A DNA stretch of 14,605 nucleotides from an uncultured Lachnospiraceae bacterium (GTDB lineage: Bacteria; Bacillota; Clostridia; Lachnospirales; Lachnospiraceae), in assembly GCA_949935685.1 (NCBI GenBank), contig CATLGN010000016.1:1-14605 (forward strand), written 5' to 3'. How positions within the stretch are numbered: the first letter of the stretch is position 1; each line of letters begins with the position of its first letter. Both the position numbers and the translations under genes were made by a program. Positions 397-14,605 of this stretch are shown here, piece by piece. The notes beneath the pieces were generated by a model that was not told the DNA's origin, ran no database searches, and saw nothing but the letters and a program-made list of their open reading frames with translations.

Positions 397-420
397 ATCA
401 CAGCACCACCTTTCTGTTCC

Positions 421-449: not shown

Positions 450-466
450 TCTGTTACCGTTTCCGG

Positions 467-2182
467 TCATGCAGTTTTTCGTTTTCCGGTCAGTGTCTGG
501 ATTCCCTCAATTACGAGCAGAATCGCCAGAATAATCAAAAGTACGGCGAGAATCGTCTGCGCGTAAGGGCCCCAGTCGGCGCCGCCGGCCGTTATGATGC
601 CGACCTGATTTTTTACGGTTATGACAAGCGAACAGATCGTTACGACCATCATGAACGCCATGGGCAGCAGGAACATTTTATTGTTTCTGCCGATATTGCC
701 AAGCCATGCCGCGACTGCCAGAAGACCCAGCCCGGCCAGAAGCTGATTGGCGGAGCCGAACAATCCCCATATTTTGGAATAGCCGGTCATTCCGAGCAGA
801 ATACCGATCACCACGGTAATTGCGGTCGCAAAATACGGATTTACAAGCAGTTTTTTGTAGCCGTCCGTGACATCTTTCGCCGTCTGTCCCGGCTCCAGCC
901 AGAATTCCTGGAACATAAAACGGGCCAGACGGGTCGCCGTATCCAGAGAGGTCAGGCAGAATGCGGAATATGTAAGAATCAACAGCGTGTACAGAATGTT
1001 TTCCAGTGCTGCCAGACCGGGAATAGCCGCTACCATAGCCGCGATACCGCCTGCGAAAATGTCCGTAGCGCCTGCCGTATGGCCGGTTTCCCTTGCATAG
1101 GCGATTGCGCAGAGCGTCAGGATTGCCAGTACGCATTCCAGCAGCATCCCGCCATAGGCGATCGGTTTGGCATCCGTCTCCTTATTGAGCTGTTTCGATG
1201 TCGTACCGGACGAAACGAGCGAATGGAAACCGGAAATGGCGCCGCAGGCAACCGTCGTAAACAGGATTGGAAACATATACTGCACACCGTTTCCGTTGTC
1301 TACGGCAAATCCCGCAAACGCCGGAAACAATTCGGGATTGATATTGGGATGCGCGCCCACAACTCCCACAAAGGCGACAAAAAGCATCGCATAAAGAAGG
1401 AAAGAACTTAGATAATCACGGGGCTGCAGCAAAATCCACACCGGAGCCACGGATGCGATTGCAATATAAATTCCCACAATGATCATCCATGTGTTTGTGG
1501 ACAGATACAGCGGGTGGAAATTCATGCCGACCGCCATAATTGCAATGATTGCGACAATGCCCAATATTGTGGAAACCGCCATGGAAGCATTTCTGCGGTA
1601 TACACAAAAGCCAAACACAATGGCGATCAGGATAAACAGCAGCGATACCATGGCAACGCTGGCATTGGATGCGCTTCCGGCAACATCCAAAACACCCGCT
1701 TCGTCATATTTGGCGCCGAACGTGGACGCCACGATGGAGGCAAAGGCCGCCACAACCAAAAGCAATGTCAGATAGGCAAAAATCAGAAACAGCCGTTTTG
1801 CCCGTTTGCTCATATTGGCGGAAATCACTTCTCCGATCGACTGGCCATTGTGCCGGATGGAGGCAAACAATGCGCCGAAATCATGGACACCGCCAAAAAA
1901 AATACCGCCGACCAGAACCCAGAGGGTGACAGGCAGCCAGCCGAACATAGCCGCGCCGATCGGTCCGGTAATGGGACCTGCGCCGGCAATGGATGAAAAA
2001 TGATGTCCCATCAGGACAGGCGCCTTCGCAGGAACATAGTCGACACCGTCTTCCATTGTATGAGCCGGCGTCGCTTCATCGTTCTCTCCCACACCCCATT
2101 GCCTGCAGAGCCATCTGCCGTAAAACAGATACCCGCACACAAGGACCGCCATCGAGATGAGAACCAGTACTAATGTGTTCAT
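467..2182 (-). CDS. cstA: CstA-family carbon starvation protein, inner-membrane peptide/pyruvate transporter
   Basis: This 571-aa polytopic membrane protein belongs to the CstA/BtsT family, whose studied members take up pyruvate with protons or peptides during carbon starvation. Family signatures are clear: HHFSSIAGAGPITGPIGAAM near residues 60-79, GGVHDFGALF near 98-107, the RHNGQSIGEV loop at 110-119, and SGFHSLVSSGTTSKQLNKE near 317-335. Many hydrophobic segments follow one another to the C-terminus. It is shorter than E. coli CstA (about 700 aa) but in the range usual for Firmicutes homologues. The start at 2182 (MNTLVLV) is chosen because AAGGAGA lies just upstream; the open frame extends 19 codons further without a better site. 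The start overlaps the stop of the upstream gene as ATGA, so translation is probably coupled. Substrate (pyruvate or peptides) cannot be decided from sequence. Confidence 0.95.
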   Translation of the reverse strand: MNTLVLVLISMAVLVCGYLFYGRWLCRQWGVGENDEATPAHTMEDGVDYVPAKAPVLMGHHFSSIAGAGPITGPIGAAMFGWLPVTLWVLVGGIFFGGVHDFGALFASIRHNGQSIGEVISANMSKRAKRLFLIFAYLTLLLVVAAFASIVASTFGAKYDEAGVLDVAGSASNASVAMVSLLFILIAIVFGFCVYRRNASMAVSTILGIVAIIAIMAVGMNFHPLYLSTNTWMIIVGIYIAIASVAPVWILLQPRDYLSSFLLYAMLFVAFVGVVGAHPNINPELFPAFAGFAVDNGNGVQYMFPILFTTVACGAISGFHSLVSSGTTSKQLNKETDAKPIAYGGMLLECVLAILTLCAIAYARETGHTAGATDIFAGGIAAMVAAIPGLAALENILYTLLILTYSAFCLTSLDTATRLARFMFQEFWLEPGQTAKDVTDGYKKLLVNPYFATAITVVIGILLGMTGYSKIWGLFGSANQLLAGLGLLAVAAWLGNIGRNNKMFLLPMAFMMVVTICSLVITVKNQVGIITAGGADWGPYAQTILAVLLIILAILLVIEGIQTLTGKRKTA

Positions 2183-2706
2183 ATAAATCGTCTCCTTTTC
2201 TTTGGATATAAAATTTTTTTCATAACTTCCTCCACACACCTCCCACTTCTGTTTGCGGTAATCCGGTCATTAGCGACCTCCAGTACAGCAGTATGAAAAT
2301 CCATCCAGCCATGCAGGGAAAAATGAAAACTTTTGTAGATACGGCATTTTTTTAACGCCGCACGGGCATCTTCCTCGCAGGTATCACAGATAAAGACCGG
2401 CGTAATATACGTATACATATGTCCCGGCCCGATGTCCGCGCGCTTCATTCCATCTTCACAGGCAAAATCGCGGCACGCTGCAAATTCCGTTTTTGTAAGA
2501 TGCTCCATTTCAAACAGGTACAGGAATTCTTCACACCTTGCAGACCACAGATTGGCCTTTCTGGAAAGCACATATTTCTCCGTACATTCAAAAAACTCAC
2601 AGAGGGCTGTGAGCGGCTTCCGTTCCTCTTCGAACATCGTGATATTGTAATAAGCCCGATAATTGTGCAACAGCCGGTCGATTGCAAGTTCTCTTGTGTA
2701 TTGCAT
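2179..2706 (-). CDS. Uncharacterised 175-aa protein coupled to CstA
   Basis: I do not recognise a function. The protein has no signal peptide or membrane segment, so it is probably cytosolic. It has an N-terminal helical region (MQYTRELAIDRLLHNYRAYYN), a middle section with aromatic and cysteine residues (LCEFFECTEKYV), and a C-terminal part containing GHMYTYITPVFICD and KSFHFSLHGWMDFHTAVLEV. The C-terminal part resembles, from memory, an uncharacterised Firmicutes family seen beside membrane transporters; I cannot verify this. The start at 2706 is supported by AAAGGG upstream and a strong promoter at 2741-2768. The frame extends 45 codons further upstream through AT-rich promoter sequence, which is unlikely to be coding. 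Its TGA stop overlaps the cstA ATG (ATGA), implying coupled expression and a role linked to the transporter, such as a regulator or accessory factor. That role is inference. Confidence 0.85.
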   Translation of the reverse strand: MQYTRELAIDRLLHNYRAYYNITMFEEERKPLTALCEFFECTEKYVLSRKANLWSARCEEFLYLFEMEHLTKTEFAACRDFACEDGMKRADIGPGHMYTYITPVFICDTCEEDARAALKKCRIYKSFHFSLHGWMDFHTAVLEVANDRITANRSGRCVEEVMKKILYPKKRRRFI

Positions 2707-2740
2707 AAATATACAGAATCCCTTTCGAAACAGTATATTT

Positions 2741-2768
2741 ATTATAGCATTAATTATAAAAATTTCAA
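2741..2768 (-). promoter_or_regulatory. Promoter of the uncharacterised gene-cstA operon
   Basis: On the minus strand TTGAAA (2763-2768) and a perfect TATAAT (2741-2746) are 16 bp apart, with TGC directly before the -10 (extended -10). The surrounding region is very AT-rich and it lies 34 nt before the start codon at 2706. I looked for a CcpA cre site here and did not find a convincing one. Confidence 0.75.
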
Positions 2769-2830
2769 TCTTTTTTAATAAAATTTTAATATATGGAATT
2801 ATGGATGACGCCGATGGAGACGGCAAAGCC

Positions 2831-3009
2831 GGAACATACAAACGGTATCCGGCGGGAACCTTTTTGGGGGACTGTTTTTAACGCAGATGAAATCCACCGG
2901 TTACGCAGACTTAGCCGCGACGGTTTTCCGGAGCGGCTTATGTCGTAGTTACCGGTTAGTTCAGATGCGTGTTGTCCCCGGTTCCCGCCGGATACCGTTT
3001 GTATGTTCC
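2831..3009. repeat. Long foldback element with perfect 30-bp terminal inverted repeats
   Basis: Left arm 2831-2860 and right arm 2980-3009 are perfect inverted copies over 30 bp, starting GGAACATACAAACGG. Inside, pairing continues imperfectly: GGGGAC with GTCCCC, ACGCA..TGAA (about 2881) with TTCA..TGCGT (about 2960), CCGGT with ACCGG, and an apical hairpin AGCCGC-CGG-TTTT-CCG-GCGGCT around 2912-2936. The whole can fold as one bulged hairpin of 179 nt. No transposase is encoded and I see no clear target-site duplication in the flanks. It fills most of the 315-bp gap between rluD and the next promoter. It could be a MITE-like insertion, a structured RNA or an unusual terminator; the inverted repeat itself is certain. 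Confidence 0.9.
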
Positions 3010-3021
3010 AGCGTCTTTTTT

Positions 3022-3951
3022 TCACAATCTCTCCAACAACTCCCGAAAATACCCCGGCAGCGGCGCCTCTGTTTCAATATACGCACCGCTGCGCGGATGC
3101 GTAAATCCCAAAACCCGTGCGTGCAGTGTCTGTCCCTCCAGAGAACCGTTTTTGCGGCCGGGCCCATATACCGCATCGCCGAGAAGCGGATAGCCGATAC
3201 TGGCCATGTGCACTCGGATCTGATGGGTGCGGCCCGTTTCCAGGCGGCACTCGATATGGGTATGATTTCGGAAACGTTTCAAAACGCGGTAATGGGTGAC
3301 GGCCTCTTTGCCGTTTTTATGATCGACCGCCATTCGTTTGCGGTCGCAGGCATGTCTTCCAATGGGGGCGTTTATCGTTCCTTCGTCCAGAGGAAGGACG
3401 CCGTGAACAATGGCCTCATAACGTCTCGTGATTGTATGGGCTTTTAACTGCTCTGCAATGGAGACATGGGCGTAATCGTTTTTGCACACAAGAAGAGAAC
3501 CGGTCGTATCCCGGTCGATGCGATGGACGATGCCGGGACGCAGCACACCGTTGATCCCGGATAAACTGTCTTTACAATAAAAAAGCAGTCCGTTCACGAG
3601 CGTACCGCTGTAATGTCCCGGCGCCGGATGGACTACCATGCCTTTCGGTTTATTGACGACGAGCAGATCGCTGTCCTCATACAGAATATCAAGTGGAATG
3701 TCTTCCGGCAGAATATCCGGCGTCTCCGCTTCCGGTATGCAAACGGACAGTTCGTCTCCCGCTTTCACCTTATAATTTGCTTTGACGGGTTTGCCGTCTG
3801 CCAGTACCCGCTTCTCCTGAATCAACTTTCCAATATATGTGCGGGACAGGGAATCCGCCAGTTCTGCCAGACATTTATCCACGCGCACGCCCGCTTTGTC
3901 TTCCGCGATATGAAACAGAAGCCGGTCGCCGTCGTGTTTGTTTTCGTTCAC
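3022..3951 (-). CDS. rluD: RluD-family 23S rRNA pseudouridine synthase
   Basis: This 309-aa enzyme isomerises specific uridines in RNA to pseudouridine; the RluD/RluA branch acts mainly on the large ribosomal RNA. An S4-type RNA-binding domain covers about residues 15-75 (RVDKCLAELADSLSRTYIGK), followed by the catalytic domain. The catalytic motif HRIDRDTTG is at 143-151, with the nucleophile-type Asp at 146. A second conserved motif, GRTHQIRVH, is at 240-248. Length is typical. The start is a GTG whose first bases form a GTGA overlap with the lspA stop, and CGGAG lies about 8 nt upstream, so translation is coupled to lspA. The lspA-rluD pairing is common in Firmicutes. The gene closes its operon, with a foldback element beginning 12 nt beyond the stop. 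The exact target uridines cannot be told from sequence. Confidence 0.95.
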   Translation of the reverse strand: MNENKHDGDRLLFHIAEDKAGVRVDKCLAELADSLSRTYIGKLIQEKRVLADGKPVKANYKVKAGDELSVCIPEAETPDILPEDIPLDILYEDSDLLVVNKPKGMVVHPAPGHYSGTLVNGLLFYCKDSLSGINGVLRPGIVHRIDRDTTGSLLVCKNDYAHVSIAEQLKAHTITRRYEAIVHGVLPLDEGTINAPIGRHACDRKRMAVDHKNGKEAVTHYRVLKRFRNHTHIECRLETGRTHQIRVHMASIGYPLLGDAVYGPGRKNGSLEGQTLHARVLGFTHPRSGAYIETEAPLPGYFRELLERL

Positions 3952-4523
3952 TGTTTTTCTCCGATCTTTTCCGAATGACTGGTCTCTGCCGTTTTCTGCT
4001 GAAAGCCAAGAAACTCCAAATCTTCTTCTTTATAATAAAACAGAAACAGGATGACAAAAAATACGGTCGCTATCGTAACATAAATATCCGCCACATTAAA
4101 AATCGGAAAATGAATGAGGACAAAGGATATAAAGTCAACGACATAATCCAGGCGCAGCCGGTCGATCATATTGCCGGCGGCGCCGGCGGCCACCATAATA
4201 AGCAGGATATGCAGGGCGGTATATTTGCGCTTCAGCGGCATAATGGTGAGGACAAAGACGATCGCTGCCAGTATGACGGCGGCGACAAATACAAAAAATA
4301 TTTTCTGATTCTGCAGCATGCCAAAGGCCGCGCCGCGGTTTTCCAGATAATTCAGCTCCAGAACATTGGGGATAAGCGGAATCGCCGGTTTTCCCTTCAG
4401 GTACAGCGTTGCGGCGTATTTTGCCGCCTGATCAGCCAGTATCAAAACCAGCATAACGGCCAGATCCACAAGCAGGCGCCGCGTTTTCTGTTTTGTAATT
4501 GTTGACTCTTTATTCTCTTTCAT
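3948..4523 (-). CDS. lspA: Lipoprotein signal peptidase (signal peptidase II)
   Basis: This 191-aa integral membrane aspartyl protease cleaves signal peptides from prolipoproteins after the lipobox cysteine has been lipidated. Four hydrophobic segments are visible (about 20-38, 75-95, 103-118 and 145-164). The catalytic pair is present: Asp121 in GNMIDR and Asp146 in FNVADIYV; NRGAAFG (62-68) is a further conserved motif. The C-terminal 25 residues are a charged cytosolic tail. I place the start at the ATG at 4523: GGAGGAG sits about 10 nt upstream, whereas the in-frame TTG at 4532 would be almost on top of it. The start lies inside the end of aroB (14-nt overlap) and the stop overlaps the rluD GTG start. 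A likely local substrate is the lipoprotein carboxypeptidase encoded at 9321-10313. Confidence 0.95.
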   Translation of the reverse strand: MKENKESTITKQKTRRLLVDLAVMLVLILADQAAKYAATLYLKGKPAIPLIPNVLELNYLENRGAAFGMLQNQKIFFVFVAAVILAAIVFVLTIMPLKRKYTALHILLIMVAAGAAGNMIDRLRLDYVVDFISFVLIHFPIFNVADIYVTIATVFFVILFLFYYKEEDLEFLGFQQKTAETSHSEKIGEKQ

Positions 4524-5610
4524 CAAAGACAATCTCCTCCAATGCCTGGCGCATTTCCTGTTCTGTCACCGTATGATCGATCACCGCTTCGCCGATTTGT
4601 CTGAGCAGGATAAATCTGATTTTCCCATGTTCCATCTTTTTATCCGAACGGGTGAGGCGAAGAATCTCCTCCACATCCAGATCGGTGATGGAGATGGGTA
4701 ATCCAAAGGGAACAAACATATCACGGATTTCATAGTATTCTTCCCTGGAAAGCAGCTTCCGCTTCCAGGAAATACAGGAGGCGGCCACGGCGCCGAGCGC
4801 TACGCACTCTCCGTGCAGCATCGTAAAATTTTTATATTTCTCTATTGCGTGTCCGATGGTATGTCCAAAATTCAAAAGCGCACGCTCTCCCTGTTCCGCA
4901 GGGTCCTTTTCCACGACGGCTTTTTTGATCAGACAGCTTTCATAAATCATTTCCTCCAGAACGTCCATATCCCGGTCATTGATTTCCATAAAGTGCCCGA
5001 TCAGCCATTCATAGTAAGAAGCGTCGCGAATCAGTCCGTGTTTGAGTATTTCCGCCATACCGCACGCATACTGTCTGGCATCCAGATCGCTGAGGACGGA
5101 CAGATTCATATAAACAAGCCGTGGCATATGAAACGCGCCGACCATATTTTTATACTGGTCAAAATCCACGCCTGTCTTTCCGCCGATGCTGCTGTCCACC
5201 TGCGCAAGCAGTGTCGTCGGTATCTGGATAAAGTCAATCCCCCGCAGATACGTGGCCGCCGCATATCCGGTCAGATCACCGACCACACCGCCGCCCAGTG
5301 CAACGAGCATATCCTTTCGGTCCAGCCCATGCGCGATCAGGAAGCGATAGACATCCTGTACGGTGCCAAGATGCTTGGACTGTTCGCCGGCCGGAAAGGA
5401 GAAAATCAAAACCTCTTTACAGCAGGCAGTCAGAACAGCCGCAAGACTGTCCGCATACCGTTTTTCCACGTTGGAATCCGTTATAATACAGAGCTTTTTT
5501 GATGCGGTATTCAGCGATTCCAGCTCCCGCGCAAGTCCTGTGAAATCATCCCGGATTACAATATCATAGTTTTTCCCGGCAGGAACCGTTACCGTGATTC
5601 TTTTTGCCAT
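4510..5610 (-). CDS. aroB: 3-dehydroquinate synthase
   Basis: AroB converts DAHP to 3-dehydroquinate, the second step of the shikimate pathway to aromatic amino acids and folate, using NAD and a divalent metal. The 366-aa length is normal. The NAD-binding motif GGGVVGD is at 106-112, followed by the conserved PTTLLAQVDSSIGGKTGVD stretch at 131-149. Metal ligands are in place: Glu187 (GMAEILKHG), His250 (NFGHTIGHA) and His266 (LHGE). The ATG at 5610 has AGGAGA upstream. This shikimate gene sits inside an operon of division and envelope genes, between sepF and lspA, with no other aro gene in the window. A hairpin with a U-rich tail directly before its ribosome binding site (5623-5651) suggests its expression may be uncoupled from the genes upstream. 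Confidence 0.96.
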   Translation of the reverse strand: MAKRITVTVPAGKNYDIVIRDDFTGLARELESLNTASKKLCIITDSNVEKRYADSLAAVLTACCKEVLIFSFPAGEQSKHLGTVQDVYRFLIAHGLDRKDMLVALGGGVVGDLTGYAAATYLRGIDFIQIPTTLLAQVDSSIGGKTGVDFDQYKNMVGAFHMPRLVYMNLSVLSDLDARQYACGMAEILKHGLIRDASYYEWLIGHFMEINDRDMDVLEEMIYESCLIKKAVVEKDPAEQGERALLNFGHTIGHAIEKYKNFTMLHGECVALGAVAASCISWKRKLLSREEYYEIRDMFVPFGLPISITDLDVEEILRLTRSDKKMEHGKIRFILLRQIGEAVIDHTVTEQEMRQALEEIVFDERE

Positions 5611-5622
5611 AATGTCTTCTCC

Positions 5623-5651
5623 TAAGAAAAGAACTTCCCGAAGGAAGCTCC
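5623..5651 (-). terminator. Possible terminator/attenuator hairpin before aroB
   Basis: On the minus strand GGAGCTTCC and GGAAGTTCT pair around a TTCG tetraloop (loop at 5639-5642), giving a stem of up to 9 bp that includes G-U pairs. It is followed directly by TTTCTT and then by the aroB ribosome binding site. The stem is short, so it may be a weak terminator, an attenuator or an mRNA stabilising or processing structure. Confidence 0.45.
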
Positions 5652-5666
5652 TTTATCGTTATGTAT

Positions 5667-6161
5667 TTAAAATGCCGGTACATCAAAGCCGCTGTTGATA
5701 ATCTCCTGAAAATCGCCGGATATATCCACGCTGGCAGGTGTAACAATGAAAATATAGTGTGATATTTTCTGAAGATTGCCGCTGATCGCAAAGGTGGAAC
5801 CCGATGTAAAATCGATAATACGCTGCGCAATATCGACATCCAGTCCCTCAAGATTCAGCACAACGGTCCGATTGGCCAGCAGGGTTTCCGTAATCTCCCT
5901 TCCGTCCTCTACGGTAGTCGGCTTGATCACACAGACTTCCATTCCGTTTCCCATAATTTTTCTGGGGCTCTGGCGCATTGGAGTGACTTTCGAAGAAGAT
6001 TTCCGCGGTTTTTCTTCCGGTTCTTCTCTGACCGGTTCCTTGACCGGCGCTATCTTTTTGGGCTTTTCTTCCGGTTCCTCATCGTAGTAATCGTCGTCAT
6101 AATAGTCGTCGTCATCTTCCGTCAGTTTCATGTAATTTAAAAACTTGTCCATAACTCCCAT
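5667..6161 (-). CDS. sepF: SepF, membrane anchor and bundler of FtsZ
   Basis: SepF binds FtsZ and the membrane and helps assemble the division ring in Gram-positive bacteria. The 164-aa protein has three parts: an N-terminal amphipathic helix (MGVMDKFLNYMKL), which is the membrane anchor; an acidic and proline-rich linker with a run of Asp/Tyr residues (15-33) then Glu/Pro/Lys; and the C-terminal SepF domain (about 72-164) with RTVVLNLEGLD and ISGNLQKISHYIFIVTP. The start at 6161 is chosen because TAAGGAG lies 9 nt upstream; the frame opens further to an ATG at 6200, but that would run back into the end of yggS and lose the exposed helix. The yggS stop codon TAA is part of this ribosome binding site, which implies coupled translation. 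The ylmE(yggS)-sepF pairing is classic for Firmicutes. Confidence 0.95.
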   Translation of the reverse strand: MGVMDKFLNYMKLTEDDDDYYDDDYYDEEPEEKPKKIAPVKEPVREEPEEKPRKSSSKVTPMRQSPRKIMGNGMEVCVIKPTTVEDGREITETLLANRTVVLNLEGLDVDIAQRIIDFTSGSTFAISGNLQKISHYIFIVTPASVDISGDFQEIINSGFDVPAF

Positions 6162-6174
6162 AGCAGTTATCTCC

Positions 6175-6885
6175 TTATTTCTCTGCAACGGGATACGCAT
6201 AATCCCGTTCGCCGAATATTCCGGTTCCTACCCGTACATAACCGGCTCCCTCGCTGACTGCAACTTCGTAGTCCCCGGTCATACCCATGGACAGAATATC
6301 CATAGATACATTATCAATGTTTTTTTGCCTGATGTCAACAGATAATTGTTTCAGGGCATGAAAATATTGTCTGTTTTCTTCCGCATGTTCCACGTATGGT
6401 GCAACCGTCATCAGCCCTTTTACCGCAATGCCGGGAAGCGCAGCGATCGCTTCTGTCATCTGCAATACTTCGGCTGCGGAAGTCAGGCCAAACTTCGACT
6501 GCTCTCCCGCCGCGTTGACTTCGATCAGGATGGAAGTGATTACCTGCTTTTTCACGGACTCTCTGCTGATCTCCTGCGCAAGACGCAGCGAATCCACACT
6601 GTGAATCAGGAATACCTTACCGATCAGATATTTTACTTTATTGCGCTGCAGATGGCCGATCATATGCCAGCGAATGTCCTTGGGCAGCGCTTCGTATTTT
6701 TCCGTCAGCTCCTGCACCCGGTTTTCACCAAAGTCCCGGCAGCCGCAGTCATAGGCTTCCTGCAGCATGGGAAGGGGTTTTGTTTTGCTGACTGCGATCA
6801 ATGTCACCGACGACCGTTCCCGTCCCGCCTTCTCACATGCTCCGGCAATGCGCGCTTCTACCTGCGCCATATTTTCCGCTATCAT
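6175..6885 (-). CDS. yggS: YggS/YlmE-family pyridoxal phosphate homeostasis protein
   Basis: This 236-aa single-domain protein has the alanine-racemase-like TIM-barrel fold and binds PLP without a known enzymatic reaction; family members maintain PLP and amino-acid balance. The PLP-binding lysine is Lys34 in AVSKTKP. Other family landmarks are FGENRVQE (about 52-59), WHMIGHLQRNKVK (73-85), GLMTVAP, SMGMTGDYEVAV near 200-210, and the phosphate-binding RVGTGIFGERDY near the C-terminus. The ATG at 6885 follows AGGAGGAG closely. The stop codon (TAG) of the HlyD-like gene upstream lies within that ribosome binding site, so the genes are translationally linked. Position directly before sepF matches the ylmE-sepF cluster of Gram-positive division regions. 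Confidence 0.95.
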   Translation of the reverse strand: MIAENMAQVEARIAGACEKAGRERSSVTLIAVSKTKPLPMLQEAYDCGCRDFGENRVQELTEKYEALPKDIRWHMIGHLQRNKVKYLIGKVFLIHSVDSLRLAQEISRESVKKQVITSILIEVNAAGEQSKFGLTSAAEVLQMTEAIAALPGIAVKGLMTVAPYVEHAEENRQYFHALKQLSVDIRQKNIDNVSMDILSMGMTGDYEVAVSEGAGYVRVGTGIFGERDYAYPVAEK

Positions 6886-6894
6886 TGGCTCCTC

Positions 6895-8286
6895 CTATTC
6901 ATGTGTGAAATCATGTTCCTGCACGCTGGATGCATCCAGCGCAATATAGTCATAAACGCTCAACCCATATGTCGTACCGGACTGTACGATCGAATATTCT
7001 TCATTGTCGTATAAAACCTGAATTTTTTTAAAATCGGCATAACCCTTGTTGATATTGTAGACGCCCATCAACTTGCCGCGTTTGCTGATGGGATACTTCT
7101 CTGTGGAGTCCGGTTTGAGAATATAATCCCCGATCCGCAGCGTCGAATCGTCGAGATAATACTCGCCGTTTTCCTCGTCATAGATCGGCGTTTCGATAAA
7201 TTCCGTCGTCACGCCATCCTCGGTATAGACCTCCCGCAGGACGCCGTCTGCGCCGCTGTTGCCGCCTTTTGTGACATAATCGGTGGGAACCAGAAAAAAT
7301 TCCCGTTCCACAATCGCTGAATTGGGAATCTTCAGTCCCGTATCTTCCTCTGTAATCAGCTCAATATCAATAAAGCGATCGGTACAGAAGGTAATCATGG
7401 AATTATTGAACTTTAATTCCGCATAGATACCGTCTTCGTTTTCATGAATCGCCACTTCTCCCCAGGAAACGGTCTGGTTTTTGAGGAATTTTACTTTTAC
7501 ATATTCCGCTTCGATCAGTTCCGCGGCACGCTCGGGCGTTACGGGAATGACGATGGACCAGTTTTCGCTCAGTGAGATTTTGTAGGCCGGATCCCCGCGA
7601 TTGACCAGCTCGTTGTTGATCAGCGGTTTCTTTTCATATGTCGTGGTATCGAAATCCGCCTGCGTCACCTGATCGGCAGTCAACGTTTCATAGTTGTCGG
7701 TCGAATAGATAATGATACCGGTCTTGGACGCCCGACACAAATCCACCAGCCCGGAACTGCCGGACGTGTTCAGCGCATCGATATTATCCAGGATGCGGGA
7801 GTTGGCCAGTTTCATAACCGTGCCCTGCACACTGTATTTGAAATCATAGACATCCCGGAAATTTTTCGTGGAAAATGTGCTTGTAAAGCCGAATATTTCG
7901 GATTTCAGTTCATTCAGATCCGCATCCGACAGCGAATTTTCATCCGGGTCGCTGCCGCCGACCATCTCGGAAATCTTCCCTGTCTCATCAACCGTATAGA
8001 CGAGATCGCCTACGGCTACCCTGCCGCTTTCGCGGGCATAATAATTGATGTACCCGGAACCCGTGCTGGCGACAATTTCTTCCTGCCGGATGGCAATGCC
8101 TTTGTAAACATTGTTGACGGAAAGCGAACCCGTTTTCACTTCATATCCGATAATGTGGCTGGAGGTAAAGTACATTACCACACAGATTATGATATAAACG
8201 GAAATGCAACCGAAAATAATCATACCCAAATTGATGTTCAACGGTTTTCGATATTGTCTTATTTTACCTGAACGCCTTTTCGCCAA
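6895..8286 (-). CDS. HlyD-like membrane-anchored adaptor protein in the ylmE-sepF cluster
   Basis: This 463-aa protein has a basic N-terminus, one transmembrane segment (about 20-42, IIFGCISVYIIICVVMYF), and a large outside domain. The stretch VASTGSGYINYYARESGRV (about 72-90) followed by VGDLVYTVDE looks like the barrel-sandwich (lipoyl-like) fold of HlyD-type membrane fusion proteins. The rest is beta-rich without the long coiled coil of true efflux adaptors. No ABC or other transporter partner is encoded nearby. Such proteins are often seen upstream of yggS-sepF in clostridia, so a cell-envelope or division role is plausible, but no function is established here. The start is TTG: AAAGGGGG lies 6 nt upstream, and an in-frame stop just before it excludes an earlier start. 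It begins a new transcription unit after the terminator at 8363-8396; only a weak promoter candidate (TGATAATAT, about 8312-8320) is visible. Confidence 0.8.
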   Translation of the reverse strand: MAKRRSGKIRQYRKPLNINLGMIIFGCISVYIIICVVMYFTSSHIIGYEVKTGSLSVNNVYKGIAIRQEEIVASTGSGYINYYARESGRVAVGDLVYTVDETGKISEMVGGSDPDENSLSDADLNELKSEIFGFTSTFSTKNFRDVYDFKYSVQGTVMKLANSRILDNIDALNTSGSSGLVDLCRASKTGIIIYSTDNYETLTADQVTQADFDTTTYEKKPLINNELVNRGDPAYKISLSENWSIVIPVTPERAAELIEAEYVKVKFLKNQTVSWGEVAIHENEDGIYAELKFNNSMITFCTDRFIDIELITEEDTGLKIPNSAIVEREFFLVPTDYVTKGGNSGADGVLREVYTEDGVTTEFIETPIYDEENGEYYLDDSTLRIGDYILKPDSTEKYPISKRGKLMGVYNINKGYADFKKIQVLYDNEEYSIVQSGTTYGLSVYDYIALDASSVQEHDFTHE

Positions 8287-8362
8287 AGTATTCCCCCTTT
8301 ACATATGGCAAAATATTATCAGAACCGCACACACCGCCGCAGGGTATGGAGGTTTTACTATG

Positions 8363-8396
8363 AAAAGCCCCTGCCCACTCACGGCAGAGGCTTTTT
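8363..8396 (-). terminator. Strong intrinsic terminator, probably bidirectional
   Basis: A 13-bp stem (8363-8375 with 8383-8395, one G-U pair) reads AAAAGCCTCTGCC on the minus strand and has a 7-nt loop. It ends in TTTT on the minus strand and TTTTT on the plus strand. It lies 18 nt past the stop of the P-loop gene and separates it from the HlyD-like gene. Confidence 0.88.
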
Positions 8397-8413
8397 ATCG
8401 TATAGCAGGGAAT

Positions 8414-8833
8414 TTAAAGAGAAACGATCACTTTATTCCGCAGACTCTCGGGAAGTTCTGGTTCATCCAATGAAATGTTAATCAGGAAATCCACATGGAA
8501 CATACTGCTGATCTTTTCCAGTTTCTGGATTGCCGGTTCAATATCCTGCCCCTCCAGGTGCGCGATTACAAGGAAGCTGTCCAGATACATTTGCTCCAGA
8601 TCATGATCCTGTGAAATAATACCACAGATAAAACCGATAAATTCATCACAGTCGCTGAGCGGATAGTCGGAAACGTTGATGAGACGGATCCGGTTATTCA
8701 ACTCATACATATTTTTTGCATTTTTATCCAGATAAACAATATTTCCGGACGCCGTTTTTACCGCGGTATTCACTTTATCCAACAAATGTTTTGTCTTACC
8801 TTTTCCCTTCTTGCCAACAATTAACTGAACCAT
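8414..8833 (-). CDS. Small P-loop NTPase-like protein of unknown function
   Basis: The 139-aa protein begins MVQLIVGKKGKGKTKHLLDK, a textbook Walker A motif (GKKGKGKT, residues 7-14) directly after the first strand. A second strand IVYLDKNAK follows near 32-40 and a third, DSFLVIAHLEG, near 85-95. No clear Walker B acid pair or arginine finger is obvious, though DEFIGF (63-68) is a candidate. It is far too short for a full PilT or AAA protein, although relatives are sometimes labelled that way. The ATG at 8833 follows AGGAGGGA. It appears to be a single-gene unit: its own promoter at 8867-8895 and a terminator at 8363-8396. It is cytosolic by composition. Nucleotide binding is likely; any role is unknown. 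Confidence 0.8.
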   Translation of the reverse strand: MVQLIVGKKGKGKTKHLLDKVNTAVKTASGNIVYLDKNAKNMYELNNRIRLINVSDYPLSDCDEFIGFICGIISQDHDLEQMYLDSFLVIAHLEGQDIEPAIQKLEKISSMFHVDFLINISLDEPELPESLRNKVIVSL

Positions 8834-8866
8834 CGCAATCCCTCCTAAAGTAAACTTGTTATGTCC

Positions 8867-8895
8867 ATTATAAATTATATGGAAGTAAAAAACAA
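8867..8895 (-). promoter_or_regulatory. Promoter of the small P-loop gene
   Basis: On the minus strand TTGTTT (8890-8895) and a perfect TATAAT (8867-8872) are 17 bp apart, 33 nt before the start codon at 8833. The -35 box lies 10 bp from the outer end of the foldback element at 8906, so that element forms the upstream flank of the promoter. Confidence 0.7.
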
Positions 8896-8905
8896 CCTCT
8901 TATTT

Positions 8906-9320
8906 TATCCGTCGCACGACAAACGCATAAATGAACAGACTGTGAATACATCATGTACAAAGGACAGAAACGGAAAATTCTGATCGGATTATGGCTTTCC
9001 GACAGGGGCGCTGCATTTCGACCGCGCACCGGGCTACAGGCATAAGCGGTTCTAAGCGCTGTGGCAACGATACTGTCAGGCATACAACCGACCTCCATGC
9101 GCCATCCGGGCGCAAGTCGGTCTTTTCCGGACATCCCTGTCCGGAAATTGCAGGTTATGACACAGCGATAAGAACCGCTAATACCTTCCGCAAGGTACAC
9201 GGTTGAAATGCTGCGCCCCTGCCGAAAGTATGTTGCATCGCAGAATTTTCCGTTTCTGTCCGGCTCAAACTGTGAAATGTTCACAGTCTGTTCATTTATG
9301 CGTTTGTGGTGCGTCGGATA
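8906..9320. repeat. 415-bp imperfect foldback element (two diverged head-to-head arms)
   Basis: The ends 8906-8946 and 9280-9320 are inverted copies matching at 39 of 41 positions (outer sequence TATCCG, then ACAAACGCATAAATGAACAG). Further in, 8962-8982 pairs perfectly with 9241-9261 (21 bp), and 8997-9062 matches 9162-9227 at 51 of 66 positions. At the tip is a smaller hairpin, ACCGAC (9087-9092) with GTCGGT (9116-9121) and TGCGC with GCGCA. The right arm carries an extra 8-bp hairpin at 9126-9145 (TCCGGACA with TGTCCGGA). The right end touches the carboxypeptidase stop codon at 9321. Frames that stay open through it are, I think, incidental. It fills most of the 487-bp gene-free gap. It may be a MITE-like element, a structured RNA or a terminator for the operon to its right; origin unknown. 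Confidence 0.9.
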
Positions 9321-10313
9321 TTACCGGTTAATCTCTGCCAGCAGCCCTGTCATTTCCTCGTATAGCAGCGAACGTTCCTCGCTGCGCAGGATAACGGAAA
9401 TATACGGATTGCCGGAAGCGTCTTTGGACAAGAGAATCAGACAGCTTTTTGCCGCGCTTGTCGTCCCGGTTTTGCCGCCGATAACGGTGATATTCTCCGG
9501 CGGTTCATAAGCCCCCTGCAGAAACTGGTTTGTATTTTTAAACTCAAATGTCTTTGGTTTGCCGTCTTTATCCGCATAGGTAGTCGTATACTCCTCCATA
9601 CCGATAATCTCGGAAAACAGCTCATACTTCATGGCTTCGTTAAATATCAGATACAGGTCATATGCGGTTACATAGTGATTTTCGTCATGCAGGCCGTGCG
9701 GATTGACAAAATGGCAGTTGGTAGCTCCGAGCGCACGCGCTTCTTCGTTCATCATTTCCGCGAAATGTTCAACCGTGCCGCCCACATGTTCCGCGATGGC
9801 AAGACCCGCATCATTGGCCGAATTGATCAGCAGCGCATGCAACGCCTGATCGAGCGTCAGCGTATCGCCTGTTTTCAGTCCGCAGAGCTGTGCGCCGCTC
9901 TCCGTAATGCCTGCGCTGGCCGCACTGACGATAATGGTGTCTTCCGGATTCCCGTATTTCAATGCTACAAGAGCCGTCATCACCTTCGTCAGGCTGGCAG
10001 GATATAGTCTCTTATGTATGCCTTTGGCATAGATTACGTCTGTCTGATTCAGGTCAAAAAGTCCTGCGCTCTCCGCTCCCGTCATGTCAACCGACGCACC
10101 CTCCGTAATATCGGAGGAAGCCACACACAGGTCTTCCGCAAACAACTGTGCCTGTCTGGCCATAGCGCTTTCGGTAATTTGAAAACTGCTGACGGTGCTG
10201 TTCGGATCATAGGCAAACGTATACTGCTTTGCGCCGCAGCCAGTCAAAACGCAGGATAAAAGAAGAACCGCGACGGCGGGCAGGACCCGTTTTTTTCTAT
10301 TTGTATATATCAC
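9321..10313 (-). CDS. Lipoprotein D-alanyl-D-alanine carboxypeptidase (DacF/PBP5-like)
   Basis: This 330-aa penicillin-binding protein removes the terminal D-Ala from peptidoglycan stem peptides, limiting cross-linking. The N-terminus has basic residues, a hydrophobic stretch and a lipobox, LTGC, with Cys26 as the lipidation site, so it should be anchored to the outer face of the membrane. All three S11-family motifs are intact: SLTK (Ser107, Lys110), SAN (165-167) and KTG (281-283). It stops about 40 residues after KTG and lacks the C-terminal PBP5 domain seen in longer members. The start is a GTG at 10313, with GGAG 4 nt and AGGAG 12 nt upstream, both within the end of the preceding gene (17-nt overlap). 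It is the last gene of the mrdA-min-rodA operon and fits its wall-synthesis theme. Its processing would need LspA, encoded at 3948-4523. Confidence 0.92.
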   Translation of the reverse strand: MIYTNRKKRVLPAVAVLLLSCVLTGCGAKQYTFAYDPNSTVSSFQITESAMARQAQLFAEDLCVASSDITEGASVDMTGAESAGLFDLNQTDVIYAKGIHKRLYPASLTKVMTALVALKYGNPEDTIIVSAASAGITESGAQLCGLKTGDTLTLDQALHALLINSANDAGLAIAEHVGGTVEHFAEMMNEEARALGATNCHFVNPHGLHDENHYVTAYDLYLIFNEAMKYELFSEIIGMEEYTTTYADKDGKPKTFEFKNTNQFLQGAYEPPENITVIGGKTGTTSAAKSCLILLSKDASGNPYISVILRSEERSLLYEEMTGLLAEINR

Positions 10314-10692
10314 GCCACTCCATATCTCCTCTGTCCAGCGATTTCAGCAGCAATTCCGCAGAAGCGAGATTGGTCGCAATGGGAATATTGTGCATGTCAC
10401 ATAAGCGGTAAATGTCTCCGATATTCGGTTCATGGGACTTGGGGGTCAGGGGATCCCGCAGAAAAATAACCAGATCGATTTCATTGCTCTCGATCTGTGC
10501 ACCCAACTGCTGCGCACCGCCCAAATGTCCTGCCAGATGTTTATGAATATTCAGATTCGTTACTTCCTCTACAAGTCTCCCGGTTGTTCCTGTCGCATAC
10601 AACTCGTTTTTGGAGAGGATTCCTCTGTATGCGATACAGAAATTCTGCATCAGTTTCTTTTTCGCATCGTGTGCGATCAGTGCTATTTTCAT
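10297..10692 (-). CDS. mgsA: Methylglyoxal synthase homologue with altered active site
   Basis: Methylglyoxal synthase turns dihydroxyacetone phosphate into methylglyoxal and phosphate. This 131-aa protein aligns along its whole length with E. coli and B. subtilis MgsA: MKIALIAHD (His8), the phosphate loop ATGTTG (33-38), IFLRDPL (Asp80), SHEP (His87) and IPIATN. Two acidic residues of the E. coli enzyme are replaced, however. The base equivalent to Asp71 (GGDQQ) is Ala60 (GGAQQ), and Asp101 (HDPD) is Asn90 (HEPN). The phosphate-binding Ser65 is also Ala54. I checked these codons (GCG, AAT, GCA). The protein may be inactive, may use other residues, or may act as a sensor of phosphorylated metabolites; other clostridial homologues may share the change. 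ATG at 10692 follows GAGGG, 10 nt after rodA. The family call is firm and the activity is doubtful. Confidence 0.88.
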   Translation of the reverse strand: MKIALIAHDAKKKLMQNFCIAYRGILSKNELYATGTTGRLVEEVTNLNIHKHLAGHLGGAQQLGAQIESNEIDLVIFLRDPLTPKSHEPNIGDIYRLCDMHNIPIATNLASAELLLKSLDRGDMEWRDIYK

Positions 10693-10702
10693 TGTTAGTC
10701 CC

Positions 10703-11818
10703 TCACTTTATAGTAGTATTTTTTCCCTGTAATCGAACGTTTAGAACAAACCCCATACCGATAAACAGACTGACCAGAGAAGTCAATCCGGCACTGACAA
10801 AGGGAAGCGGTATCCCTGTGTTTGGCATAAGCCCCGTGGCGACGGCAATGTTCATATAACTCTGAAAGCCGACCAGGGCCGCCATGCCGCTGCAGATAAT
10901 CATTCCCGCCGTATCTTTGGCTTTTCTTGCAATCATAATGCATTCCAGCGCGATCAGGAATAAAAGGAGAATTACGGCGCAGGAACCTACAAAGCCAAGC
11001 TCTTCCCCGATAATCGCAAAGATAAAGTCGGTCTGCGGTTCCGAGATAAAATTGCCGTTTTTTACGGAACCGATAATATTATTGTTCAGACCTTTTCCCC
11101 AGAGCTGCCCGGAGCCGATCGCCGTAATGGAATTCGCCTGCTGATACCCCTCCGTATTGACATATTCCGAGGGATGCAGCCAAGCAAGAATACGCGTCTG
11201 CTGATAGCTTTTGATCAGCTTTTGATCGGGCTGCAGAACGATCATCAGAAAAATCACCACAAGCGGGATGACAACTGCCAGTACCCCCGCGATAATCCGA
11301 TAATCCAGCCCGCCGATAAACAGTACGATGCAGAAAATCACACCAAGCATAATACTGGTGGAAAGATCGGGCTGATGATAGATCAAAAGCAGCGGCGGTA
11401 AAAACAGGGCCGCCATTTTTGCCAGTGTCCGAAACGAATTCAGCTTCTTCTCCTGTTTCATAATAAACTGCGCATAAAATAAAATCAATAAAATTTTCGC
11501 CAGTTCCGAAGGCTGAAAGCGGATACCGAAGATGGAAAACCATCTCTGCGCGCCGCCCGCTTTGGAACCCATGAATTCCACAAGCATCAGGAGCACGACA
11601 TTTAAAATGTAAAAGGCCCAGTACAGATTCAACAATGCCGAATAATCAAACAGAGAAATAATAATCATCAGAAAAACACCCAGGATAAGCCCCATGATCT
11701 GCTTATCCTGAACGGATTTTTCCGCGCTTCCGATCGCCAGTATGCCGATGACCGAAATGGCGATCAGCATAACGACCAGTTTAAAATCATAATCTCTGAT
11801 ACGATACTTCTTTAACAT
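10703..11818 (-). CDS. rodA: RodA, SEDS-family peptidoglycan glycosyltransferase
   Basis: RodA polymerises lipid II into glycan strands during cell elongation, working in a complex with PBP2, whose gene lies at the right edge of this window. The 371-aa protein has about ten hydrophobic segments. SEDS signatures are present: RFQPSELAKI (100-109), YQQANSITAIGSGQLWGKGL (225-244), SEPQTDFIFAIIGEELGF (259-276) with the catalytic Asp at 264, and NTGIPLPFVSAGLTSL near 333-348. RodA is preferred over FtsW or SpoVE because of the mrdA-minCDE context and the length. ATG at 11818 follows CGGAG with 8-nt spacing; the gap to minE is 27 nt. Confidence 0.95.
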   Translation of the reverse strand: MLKKYRIRDYDFKLVVMLIAISVIGILAIGSAEKSVQDKQIMGLILGVFLMIIISLFDYSALLNLYWAFYILNVVLLMLVEFMGSKAGGAQRWFSIFGIRFQPSELAKILLILFYAQFIMKQEKKLNSFRTLAKMAALFLPPLLLIYHQPDLSTSIMLGVIFCIVLFIGGLDYRIIAGVLAVVIPLVVIFLMIVLQPDQKLIKSYQQTRILAWLHPSEYVNTEGYQQANSITAIGSGQLWGKGLNNNIIGSVKNGNFISEPQTDFIFAIIGEELGFVGSCAVILLLFLIALECIMIARKAKDTAGMIICSGMAALVGFQSYMNIAVATGLMPNTGIPLPFVSAGLTSLVSLFIGMGFVLNVRLQGKNTTIK

Positions 11819-11845
11819 AAGTCTGCTCCGATTTTATCCGTCTGT

Positions 11846-12112
11846 CTAATGTTTCATATCCATAATGGGAACGTTGGCATAGAGGATTGGGCTTTTCATC
11901 ACCCTTCCCCGTGCGGCCTCCCTTGTAATCTGGATTTCCATGCTCTGTGCGTCAACCTGCATATATTTGGATATGACTTTCGCAATATCCATTTTGATCA
12001 TTTCCATCATTTCCGGCGAACAGTTCAGCCTGTCCGAAATCAACAGAATCTTCAGTCTGTCCTTTGCCAGCTTTCCCGACGGTTTTTTATAGATAATATG
12101 TAATAAGCCCAT
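11846..12112 (-). CDS. minE: MinE, topological specificity factor of the Min system
   Basis: MinE stimulates the MinD ATPase at the membrane and drives pole-to-pole oscillation of MinCD so that division occurs at mid-cell. The 88-aa length is typical. The N-terminus (MGLLHIIYK) can form the membrane-binding amphipathic helix. LAKDRLKILLISDR (15-28) is the conserved MinD-contact helix/strand, and the C-terminal part (about 33-88) is the dimeric topological domain, with YMQVDAQSMEIQI as a strand. ATG at 12112 follows AAGGAGGG, 11 nt after the minD stop. Finding MinE rather than DivIVA as the Min partner points to an oscillating Min system, as in many clostridia. Confidence 0.95.
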   Translation of the reverse strand: MGLLHIIYKKPSGKLAKDRLKILLISDRLNCSPEMMEMIKMDIAKVISKYMQVDAQSMEIQITREAARGRVMKSPILYANVPIMDMKH

Positions 12113-12123
12113 ATGCGCCCTCC

Positions 12124-12915
12124 TTAATTCCTGTGAAAAATGCCCGTAACTCTTGTCCAGATAGAAATGCGCTTTTCAAAGTTCAGAAAAGGGACTTCCT
12201 CTCCCATGACACGAAGGGCTATATTTTTGTAAGCGCGTCCTGCCAGTGTGGCGTTGCCTACCAGCGGTTCCCCCTGATTGGCTGCGATCACCACATTTTC
12301 GTCGTCAGGAACGATACCGATCAATGGAATGGCAAGAATGTCCGCCACATCGCTGACAGACATCATATCGCCCCGCCGCACCATGTCGATTTTGAGCTTA
12401 TTAACGACCAGATCCGTCCTCTCGATTTCATTTGCTTCCAACCGGCCGATGATACGGTCTGCATCCCGTATGGAAGATACTTCCGGCGTCGTAATGACAA
12501 GCGCTCTGTCGGCGCCGGCAATGGCGTTCTGGAATCCCTGTTCGATTCCCGCCGGGCAGTCAAGAATTACGAAATCGAACTGCTCCCGCAGCGCCGCGAT
12601 CATCTTGACCATCTGCGGCGGCGTAACCGCCGACTTGTCTCTTGTCTGAGCGGAAGGCATCAGATACAGCCCGGGATAACGCTTATCCTTGATCAGCGCC
12701 TGTTTGATCCGGCACTTCCCCTCCACCACATCCACCAGATTGTATACAATCCGGTTTTCCAATCCCATAATAACATCCAGATTGCGCAGACCGATGTCCG
12801 TATCGATCAACGCGACCTTTTTCCCCATTGCAGCAAGACCGGTTCCCAGATTTGCGGTCGTGGTGGTCTTTCCCACGCCGCCTTTTCCTGACGTAATGAC
12901 AATAACTTCACACAT
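12124..12915 (-). CDS. minD: MinD, septum-site-determining ATPase
   Basis: MinD is a membrane-bound ParA/MinD-type ATPase that recruits MinC and is displaced by MinE. The 263-aa protein has the deviant Walker A motif GKGGVGKT (10-17, signature Lys11), the switch region DTDIGLRNLD (38-47), FVILDCPAG (115-123) as Walker B, and a C-terminal amphipathic membrane-targeting helix (about 243-263, FLNFEKRISIWTRVTGIFHRN region). The start at 12915 is chosen because AAGGAGG lies 7 nt upstream and it places the Walker motif at the usual position. The open frame extends 15 codons to an ATG at 12960 that lacks a ribosome binding site. It lies 54 nt after minC and 11 nt before minE. Confidence 0.97.
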   Translation of the reverse strand: MCEVIVITSGKGGVGKTTTTANLGTGLAAMGKKVALIDTDIGLRNLDVIMGLENRIVYNLVDVVEGKCRIKQALIKDKRYPGLYLMPSAQTRDKSAVTPPQMVKMIAALREQFDFVILDCPAGIEQGFQNAIAGADRALVITTPEVSSIRDADRIIGRLEANEIERTDLVVNKLKIDMVRRGDMMSVSDVADILAIPLIGIVPDDENVVIAANQGEPLVGNATLAGRAYKNIALRVMGEEVPFLNFEKRISIWTRVTGIFHRN

Positions 12916-12969
12916 AGAAATACCTCCTTGAAATTGATTGTCCCCTAAATTTACGTCCATACAGTTTTC

Positions 12970-13647
12970 TTATATGGGAAGCATATTTAGTAATTCTTTT
13001 GTAATTGGCTCGGCAACAACGGTTCCCTCTTTCTCATAAGCAATTTTCGGCACTACTTTTGGCCGTATGGACCACCTCCCCGCTTTTTTTGGTATTTCAT
13101 ATTTGGCGTTTCCGATTTTCAGTTTTTCCGGCGACAGTTCCAGCGCCGCCACGAAACACCCTGTCTCACCGCCCGCTCCCGCGTGGGCTTCCCCCAGCAG
13201 GCTGCCGATCACGACAATATTTTTTTTGGCCGCGATCACGGCGCCCGGACCGACGTTTCCGATTACGACAATGCTGGATTCGATCTCCAGCGTCTGGCCG
13301 CTTTTGAGACTGCCTTTGTAAAACTGCCCGTTATTTTCCTCTTTTTTCTCTTTATCCGCCTGATGGATGGCCTTCAGGAACGTTCTGTCCTTCTCTTCGT
13401 CTTTTCCTACCAGACAGACAATGTTCAAACGACAGTTATCCATAATCTGTCTGAGGAGCAATATTTCTTCTTCTGTTGTCAGCGTTCGCTTTTCAAAGGA
13501 AACCGCCATCTTTGCGCCCTTGAAAAAGGCGGCCGACTCCCGGAACTTCAGCCCTACTTCCTCCAAAAGATCAGGAAATGCAAGGGTGTCATCCAGGATT
13601 ACGGCAATTCCGTTTTGAAAGCTTTTGATGATTACCGGACTGCTCAT
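12970..13647 (-). CDS. minC: MinC, FtsZ assembly inhibitor
   Basis: MinC blocks FtsZ polymerisation away from mid-cell and is carried to the membrane by MinD. The 225-aa protein has the N-terminal FtsZ-inhibiting domain (about 1-95), a short charged linker (DKEKKEENNG), and the C-terminal beta-helix domain for dimerisation and MinD binding. The latter shows GNVGPGAVIAA (130-140), NIVVIGSLLGEAHAGA (143-158) and the ALELSPEKLKIG end motif (168-179). About 45 residues follow that motif, as in other Firmicutes MinC. ATG at 13647 follows AAGGAAGGG, 16 nt after the mrdA stop. Confidence 0.95.
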   Translation of the reverse strand: MSSPVIIKSFQNGIAVILDDTLAFPDLLEEVGLKFRESAAFFKGAKMAVSFEKRTLTTEEEILLLRQIMDNCRLNIVCLVGKDEEKDRTFLKAIHQADKEKKEENNGQFYKGSLKSGQTLEIESSIVVIGNVGPGAVIAAKKNIVVIGSLLGEAHAGAGGETGCFVAALELSPEKLKIGNAKYEIPKKAGRWSIRPKVVPKIAYEKEGTVVAEPITKELLNMLPI

Positions 13648-13663
13648 ATATCCCTTCCTTTTC

Positions 13664-14605
13664 TCAATCTCCGCCTGTGCCTACGGCCTCCGGTCTGACT
13701 GCGCTTCCCGTCAGAATCTTGTCTTCTTCCTCGGGATCGAAATAATACCGGAAGACATCTCTTGAGATTTCGGCCGCATACGCGGAATTATATCCGAATG
13801 CCACACGGGTGGCCACGGCAATTTCAGGATTCTCATACGGAGCGTAGCCGACAAACAGAGCGTGATTGGCGCGGTTTTTGTTCTCCTGTGCCGTTCCCGT
13901 TTTGCCTGCCACATTCACATTCATATTTTCATAATAAGCCTTGCTTTCAATCACCAGACGCATGCCCCGGTGCACCGCATCCCACTCATAGGACGGCAGT
14001 TCGATCTGCCGGACCACTTCCGGGGTGTAGTCTTTGATAATTTCCCCGTTGGTATCCGTCAGCTTGTCGAGCAGGCTCAGCTTATAACAGGTCCCGCTGT
14101 TGGCAACGGTCGTGACATAGCGCGCCAGACCGGCTGTCGTCAGGTTGTGCGTACCCTGTCCGATGGCGGAACGAACCGCGTCGAAATCTGACAGCTCCGG
14201 TTCCGATTCCGATATTTCGATGCCGGAGGTCTCGTTAAGGCCGAACAGTTCCGCATATTCCGCCAGCTTTTCCAGACCTCTGTCGCTGTCATAGACGCCG
14301 TTGATACTGCCGAGACGATAGGCCATCTCATAGAAAAACGTATTGCAGGAGTTCTCAATGGCGCCGGTAACGTCCAACTGGCCGTGGCTGCCGCCGCTTG
14401 TCACAATCCAGCAGCGCGGGGGCGGCGTAATCTTATCAAAAGGTCCGTAACAACCCAGACGTTCGTTCAGGCCGATTACGCCTTCCTCCAGTCCGGCAAT
14501 GGCCGAAACCATCTTAAATGTAGAGCCGGGCGCACTTCTCTGCTGCGTCGCGTAGTTCCACATAGGCCGGGACAGATCGTTCAGTAACTGATTAAAGTAT
14601 TCGGA
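13664..14605 (-). CDS. mrdA: Penicillin-binding protein 2 (C-terminal transpeptidase domain, 5' end outside window)
   Basis: The reading frame is open to the right edge, giving the last 313 residues of a class B penicillin-binding protein that cross-links peptidoglycan made by RodA during elongation. The visible part holds all three transpeptidase motifs: STFK (catalytic Ser at fragment residue 28), SCN (86-88) and KTG (235-237, AGKTGTAQE). SAIGQGTHNLTTAGLARYV is the conserved core segment between them. Position directly before minC, in the mre-mrdA-min-rodA order known from clostridia, supports MrdA/PBP2 over FtsI or SpoVD. The N-terminal membrane anchor and dimerisation domain are not in the window. 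Confidence 0.93.
   Translation of the reverse strand, partial: SEYFNQLLNDLSRPMWNYATQQRSAPGSTFKMVSAIAGLEEGVIGLNERLGCYGPFDKITPPPRCWIVTSGGSHGQLDVTGAIENSCNTFFYEMAYRLGSINGVYDSDRGLEKLAEYAELFGLNETSGIEISESEPELSDFDAVRSAIGQGTHNLTTAGLARYVTTVANSGTCYKLSLLDKLTDTNGEIIKDYTPEVVRQIELPSYEWDAVHRGMRLVIESKAYYENMNVNVAGKTGTAQENKNRANHALFVGYAPYENPEIAVATRVAFGYNSAYAAEISRDVFRYYFDPEEEDKILTGSAVRPEAVGTGGD

Follow-up and report, generated by a model that had tools for sequence, protein, structure and literature searches.

Does a gene that bears the name of methylglyoxal synthase (MGS), and that is packed into a cell-shape operon, still encode that enzyme? MGS is a homohexamer that converts dihydroxyacetone phosphate to methylglyoxal. 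The question is raised by a stretch of 14,605 nucleotides from an uncultured Lachnospiraceae bacterium (NCBI GenBank assembly GCA_949935685.1, contig CATLGN010000016.1, positions 1 to 14,605), referred to here as the window, in which an MGS homologue is encoded directly downstream of rodA. The homologue scores 152.1 bits with TIGR00160 (methylglyoxal synthase, EC 4.2.3.3; cut-off 146.9), 152.3 bits with NF003559 (cut-off 84) and 47.3 bits with Pfam MGS, and its predicted structure has the MGS fold (predicted local distance difference test score, pLDDT, 90.6). Annotation pipelines name the gene methylglyoxal synthase because its score exceeds the curated cut-off, and the named proteins among the matches listed carry the same label. 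The multidomain context of the MGS-like domains of carbamoyl-phosphate synthetase and PurH is absent, the open reading frame (ORF) of 131 residues being free-standing. The data described below indicate that rodA-linked homologues across the order Lachnospirales have lost the aspartate that is the enzyme's catalytic base; the protein is probably a former enzyme, now likely a sugar-phosphate sensor that adjusts the growth of the wall.

The window protein was aligned with MgsA sequences of solved structure, namely B. subtilis MgsA (6f2c) and E. coli MgsA (1b93), the latter aligned via a canonical copy. The alignment bears out the residue assignments of an earlier note on this DNA: Ala60, Asn90 and Ala54 stand opposite E. 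coli Asp71, Asp101 and Ser65, and the remainder of the fold is conserved, including His8, Asp9, Lys12, the ATGTTG loop at 33-38, Asp80 and His87. In E. coli terms, Lys23, the T45-G49 part of the phosphate cradle (T34-G38 here), His19, Asp91 and His98 are all matched. The available text of PMC7843640 describes D60 of the C. difficile enzyme, equivalent to E. coli D71, as the base responsible for abstracting the pro-S proton and H8 (E. coli H19) as a stabiliser; it also gives K12, T34-G38, S54 and H87 in the C. difficile enzyme, and a phosphate cradle of K23, S65 and T45-G49. According to the excerpted text of PMC1877815, H19, D71 and H98 are catalytic, whereas D91 and D101 serve substrate recognition. 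The claim that two catalytic aspartates are missing therefore holds for Asp71 but not for Asp101, and the three changed positions comprise a single genuine base plus two residues in contact with the ligand. A sequencing or assembly error was rejected, as the same Ala60 and Asn90 occur in congeners G002, G006, G007, G008 and G009, the last of which is a single contig.

The spread of these changes was assessed in a census of distinct sequences, which is not a random sample. Its loci include the best 80 of 577 confirmed matches (L003-L082), the best matches from family and class genome searches (L093-L120 and L211-L237), and loci from genomes chosen for divergence (L181-L210) or for family coverage (L278-L309). 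A partial-match filter dropped none of 346, contig-end fragments in genomes G037 and G042 were not in the census, and genomes G670 and G679 appear identical to G444 and G131, respectively, with the same coordinates. A copy was termed rodA-linked when a RodA match on its own strand lay no more than 600 bp upstream; the unlinked class may include genes whose fetched stretch ended too early. An MGS match was present in 245 of 250 genomes of Lachnospiraceae, representing 249 genera.

Asp60 is absent from 163 of the 164 distinct rodA-linked sequences of Lachnospirales, and the sole keeper (L194) is without His8, His87 and Asp90. Position 60 is instead Glu (112 sequences), Ala (25), Val (7), Met (6), Thr (4), Ser (3), Gly (2), Leu (2), Gln (1) or Ile (1). 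Position 54 is Ala in 143 sequences and Ser in 8, His87 is present in 121 and Asp90 in 133, and the full set of His8, Asp9, Ser54, Asp60, Asp80, His87 and Asp90 is found in none of the 164. The phosphate-holding residues Lys12, Thr34, Gly59 and Gln62 are invariant, whereas Gly38 and Gly55 are found in 163 sequences, Thr36 and Thr37 in 161 and Gly35 in 150. The Ala60/Asn90 pair is not clade-wide in Lachnospiraceae and was rejected as a family hallmark: it occurs in six of the 164 sequences, all from the window's genus, where six of ten genomes carry it (two of these sequences are also scan loci L003 and L004) and the remaining four have Glu60/Asp90. Among the matches listed, the exact nine-site signature that includes Ala60/Asn90 was seen in 30 of the 120 closest proteins, and P0119, at 82% identity to the window protein, also carries the pair. 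Judged from this comparison of sequences, the old and wide trait at the rodA locus is the loss of Asp60, not the Ala60/Asn90 pair. Separately, two copies in other genomes, L195 (G204:C42:98871-99236) and L337 (G225:C142:67022-67399), each appear to be broken by one stop (TAG and TGA, respectively); these are possible pseudogenes or assembly errors.

The homologue is nonetheless not a decaying gene. The ratio of nonsynonymous to synonymous substitution rates (dN/dS) ranges from 0.012 to 0.075 between the window gene and the six congeners for which dS could be computed, with three more congeners saturated. Of 78 pairs, 21 have dS below 2, and their median ratio is 0.034; because dS is high these figures are rough. 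Pseudogene decay was rejected on the intact ORF and a dN/dS of about 0.03. At 32 loci in other families of Lachnospirales, the median identity to the window proteins is 67% for the MGS homologue, 57% for MinD, 47% for MinE and 37% for RodA, making the homologue the best conserved of the proteins compared that gave usable numbers.

The genomic position of the gene is similarly stable. RodA is encoded upstream in 164 of 166 copies, at a median gap of 15 bp and with one at 247 bp; the two copies lacking it are the short loci L089 and L185. The carboxypeptidase gene dac adjoins the homologue in most of Lachnospiraceae and in only one of 34 rows from other families of the order, which indicates that the lasting partners are rodA and the min genes rather than dac. 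The tie to the rodA-dac position about which the earlier note asked thus holds for rodA and, within most of Lachnospiraceae, for dac. Co-loss of RodA and MGS was not seen in 51 genomes (21 without an MGS match and 30 with one), all of which have a RodA/SEDS match, although RodA and FtsW are not separable by identity in the divergent families of this search. In separate searches of 293 class genomes, MinC_C matched in 151 and MGS in 194.

In the window, as previously claimed, the gene is intact and stands in a tightly packed operon on the minus strand, in the order PBP (penicillin-binding protein), minC, minD, minE, rodA, MGS homologue, dac (Table 1). As a side observation, a 139-residue ORF at 8414-8833 (minus strand) has no Pfam or NCBIfam match and adjoins an HlyD-like gene; its relatives are present in 72 of the 79 best-match loci L004-L082, at a median identity of 66%.

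Table 1. Features of the MGS homologue and of its operon, in window positions
Feature	Position	Strand	Basis and remarks
MGS homologue, 131 residues, predicted pseudo-synthase	10297..10692	minus	ORF beginning with ATG and free of internal stops
Codon 12, Lys (E. coli Lys23), kept	10657..10659	minus	alignment
Codons 34-38, TGTTG, phosphate-binding loop, kept	10579..10593	minus	alignment
Codon 54, Ala (Ser65, which binds phosphate, in E. coli)	10531..10533	minus	alignment
Codon 60, Ala (E. coli Asp71, catalytic base)	10513..10515	minus	alignment
Codon 90, Asn (E. coli Asp101)	10423..10425	minus	alignment
dac, D-Ala-D-Ala carboxypeptidase (Peptidase_S11)	9321..10313	minus	ORF; start overlaps 3' end of MGS gene by 17 bp (mechanical ORF call)
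rodA, SEDS glycosyltransferase	10703..11818	minus	ORF and profile match; directly upstream of MGS gene, 10 bp gap (mechanical ORF call)
minE	11846..12112	minus	ORF and profile match
minD	12124..12960	minus	ORF and profile match
minC	12970..13647	minus	ORF and profile match
Class B PBP (transpeptidase domain)	13664..14605	minus	frame open to window edge

At least two MGS matches were found in 102 of the 250 family genomes, with those in G037 and G042 being split fragments. Second copies were fetched for part of the 102 genomes, together with eight from other families of Lachnospirales. The order yielded 90 distinct unlinked sequences, of which 77 have Asp60 and 48 have all seven site residues; none of these 48 adjoins rodA. 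Forty-five of the 47 genomes in which a full-site copy was read also list a match of at least 60% identity, which is of operon type by identity; the exceptions are G124 and G221, and both copies were read in 12 of the 47. The check for a second canonical mgsA in the window's own genome, which is 69% complete, gave none, and its other PF02142 match is carbamoyl-phosphate synthase; likewise no second copy was found in the window's genus, where each of the ten genomes has just one match; several of the ten are incomplete, and one is a single contig.

Lachnospiraceae also have a third lineage of MGS homologues, here termed 'NN' (39 distinct sequences, for example L121:2525-2917 and L168). Asp9 is changed to Asn in 30 of these, Asp80 to Asn in 31 and His87 to Lys or Arg in 23; position 54 is Pro or Ala in 35, and Asp60 is kept in 29. 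For 22 of the 39, the fetched DNA includes an rsmD-like gene, and recG, rsmD and coaD are neighbours in both loci profiled. The single member scored reached 117.3 bits, below the MGSA cut-off of 146.9.

The history of the loss was examined in other families of Clostridia, where 51 of 56 distinct sequences lie downstream of minD/minE (35), rodA (13) or a PBP gene (3). Thirty-nine of these 51 linked copies have Asp60, and 28 have all seven residues. That the rodA-linked gene arose as a recent paralogue from a canonical copy was rejected, since in other Clostridia a gene with Asp60 occupies that neighbourhood. The other 12 linked copies, which span ten families (L240, L241, L242, L245, L248, L252, L260, L261, L262, L265, L267 and L272), have lost Asp60, possibly by parallel retooling; most of them are also changed at His87 or Ser54. 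In a tree of 80 rows, built from 122 columns after removal of the site columns and leaving 41 of its 77 inner forks unresolved, the state of position 60 changes at least ten times overall and at least six times among the 27 rows from outside Lachnospirales, counts that the poor resolution makes a guide only. A single clade of the Asp60-less rows, with the 'NN' lineage excluded, was rejected (approximately unbiased test, p-AU 0.002); a clade of all operon and 'NN' rows of the order is absent from the tree and yet was not rejected on the 122 columns (p-AU 0.196). Asp60 was thus lost more than once, and the simplest story suggested by these data would be an active enzyme in a division/elongation operon whose catalysis was lost in place.

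Taken together, these data bear out the interpretation of the earlier note in part: they support its proposal that the protein has been repurposed, through the order-wide loss of Asp60, the strong purifying selection and the canonical copies elsewhere. An active mgsA would once have resided in the min-rodA operon, selection would have shifted to a non-catalytic role of its product there, and the catalytic residues would afterwards have eroded at that locus, with many genomes retaining or acquiring a canonical mgsA at another site. The resulting pseudoenzyme would have no useful synthase activity and would retain ligand binding, the predicted ligand being triose phosphate or inorganic phosphate, and its signal would pass to the RodA/PBP or Min proteins encoded alongside, with an output on elongation or division. 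We regard a pseudoenzyme that binds a small phosphate ligand and signals to the RodA/PBP or Min machinery as evenly poised between right and wrong, and the kept phosphate cradle fits the earlier idea of a glycolytic-phosphate sensor. A wider version is less likely, namely a metabolic checkpoint in which the min-rodA enzyme lost catalysis repeatedly to become a receptor for triose or free phosphate that gates RodA/PBP or Min, with the sister pseudo-synthase of the recG-rsmD-coaD locus as a second retooling.

Several observations weigh against the pseudoenzyme reading. The phosphate-binding Ser54 is lost, mostly to Ala, and affinity or ligand may differ; four of the five family genomes without an MGS match keep RodA at 41-48% identity, which indicates that the homologue is not strictly needed for RodA; and operon position on its own is no proof of a cell-shape role. 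The homologue also still passes the NCBI equivalog cut-off for MGSA, and the commonest residue at position 60, Glu, is itself acidic, occurs in the window's genus and might serve as a base, so that the Glu60 forms may still be active as synthases. It is unlikely, in our estimation, that the rodA-linked proteins remain methylglyoxal synthases in which Glu60, another residue or water supplies the base, with the Ala60/Asn90 forms being enzymes that are slow or have degenerated locally. The prevalence of Glu60 and Asp90, the combination of both in four of the ten genomes of the window's genus and the general retention of His8, Asp9 and Asp80 would agree with it; however, nine other residues (Ala, Val, Met, Thr, Ser, Gly, Leu, Ile or Gln) also occupy position 60, many copies have lost Ser54, His87 or Asp90 as well, and no copy has the full set. 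A change of Asp71 to Glu reportedly cripples the E. coli enzyme. In the accessible part of PMC10714963, MGS of B. subtilis is reported to affect elongation via methylglyoxal, which makes an active enzyme in this operon plausible, here and maybe in other Clostridia.

The very high overall conservation would also suit an oligomer that no longer binds small ligands and serves the elongasome or the Min proteins as a structural element or scaffold, as would N17, Y22, K51, C98, D99, E113, W126 and R127, which are nearly fixed in the operon clade as against canonical copies. Only N17, R23, E42, K51, L78 and L109, however, are gains when the comparison is made with operon-linked Asp60 copies of other Clostridia, and the best-kept part of the pocket is the phosphate cradle, which a pure scaffold would not need; such a role is considered improbable. 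A changed chemistry, with the protein acting on another phosphorylated substrate, for example as an isomerase or lyase whose substrate is a triose phosphate or a phosphorylated wall precursor, would account for the retention of His8, Asp9, Asp80 and the cradle alongside altered residues near the ligand's carbon end. Positions 60, 87 and 90 show no single new catalytic residue that has become fixed, however, and divergent members differ among themselves, and we consider this explanation very improbable.

If the sensor reading is true, a gene that is very common in the gut and rumen bears the wrong name. Rather than act as a source of methylglyoxal, its product would link central carbon flux to the growth of the wall, and how bacteria make such a link is an open question in growth control. 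Among the papers listed by searches of the open-licence literature on methylglyoxal synthase, none showed a description of this protein. The MgsA label on the rodA-linked gene feeds published models of the methylglyoxal shunt in Butyrivibrio: in the available portions of PMC2914790, PMC5716241, PMC6912079 and PMC7523725, the shunt in enolase-less Butyrivibrio/Pseudobutyrivibrio is inferred from annotated mgsA, with two genomes listing two mgsA genes each and P. xylanivorans MA3014 cited with a single one. In all seven Butyrivibrio-titled genomes analysed (G670-G676; L009, L012, L019, L027, L046, L059 and L066), the rodA-linked copy lacks Asp60 and has Ala60, except for Glu60 in L059, and five of the seven also hold a copy with all seven site residues (L326-L330). 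Where both are present, the shunt may run via the canonical copy; in P. xylanivorans MA3014, going by the same portions of text, the type of the sole mgsA decides whether a shunt is possible.

Among known systems, the window protein is most directly comparable to MgsA itself (EC 4.2.3.3; E. coli 1b93/1egh, B. subtilis 6f2c and C. difficile cdMGS), with which it shares the whole-length fold, 56-57% identity in the case of the B. subtilis chains (Foldseek), the phosphate loop TGTTG, and Lys12, His8, Asp9, Asp80 and His87; it differs from MgsA in lacking Asp60 and Ser54, in having Asn at 90 and in being fixed beside rodA. The MGS fold serves as a sensor in carbamoyl-phosphate synthetase, whose allosteric MGS-like domain (1ce8, 5dou, 2yvq) is fused to the enzyme and only 15-18% identical, whereas the window protein is free-standing. 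GlmR (YvcK) of B. subtilis is unrelated to the MGS homologue, and homology is not claimed. The likeness is one of role, since the homologue, like GlmR as portrayed in the available text of PMC10714963, would read carbon metabolism and tune peptidoglycan synthesis. In the same text, B. subtilis MgsA differs from the window protein in being an active enzyme whose effect on elongation is ascribed to methylglyoxal, and together with Crh it offers a further likeness, that of an MGS protein placed under protein-protein control by carbon flux.
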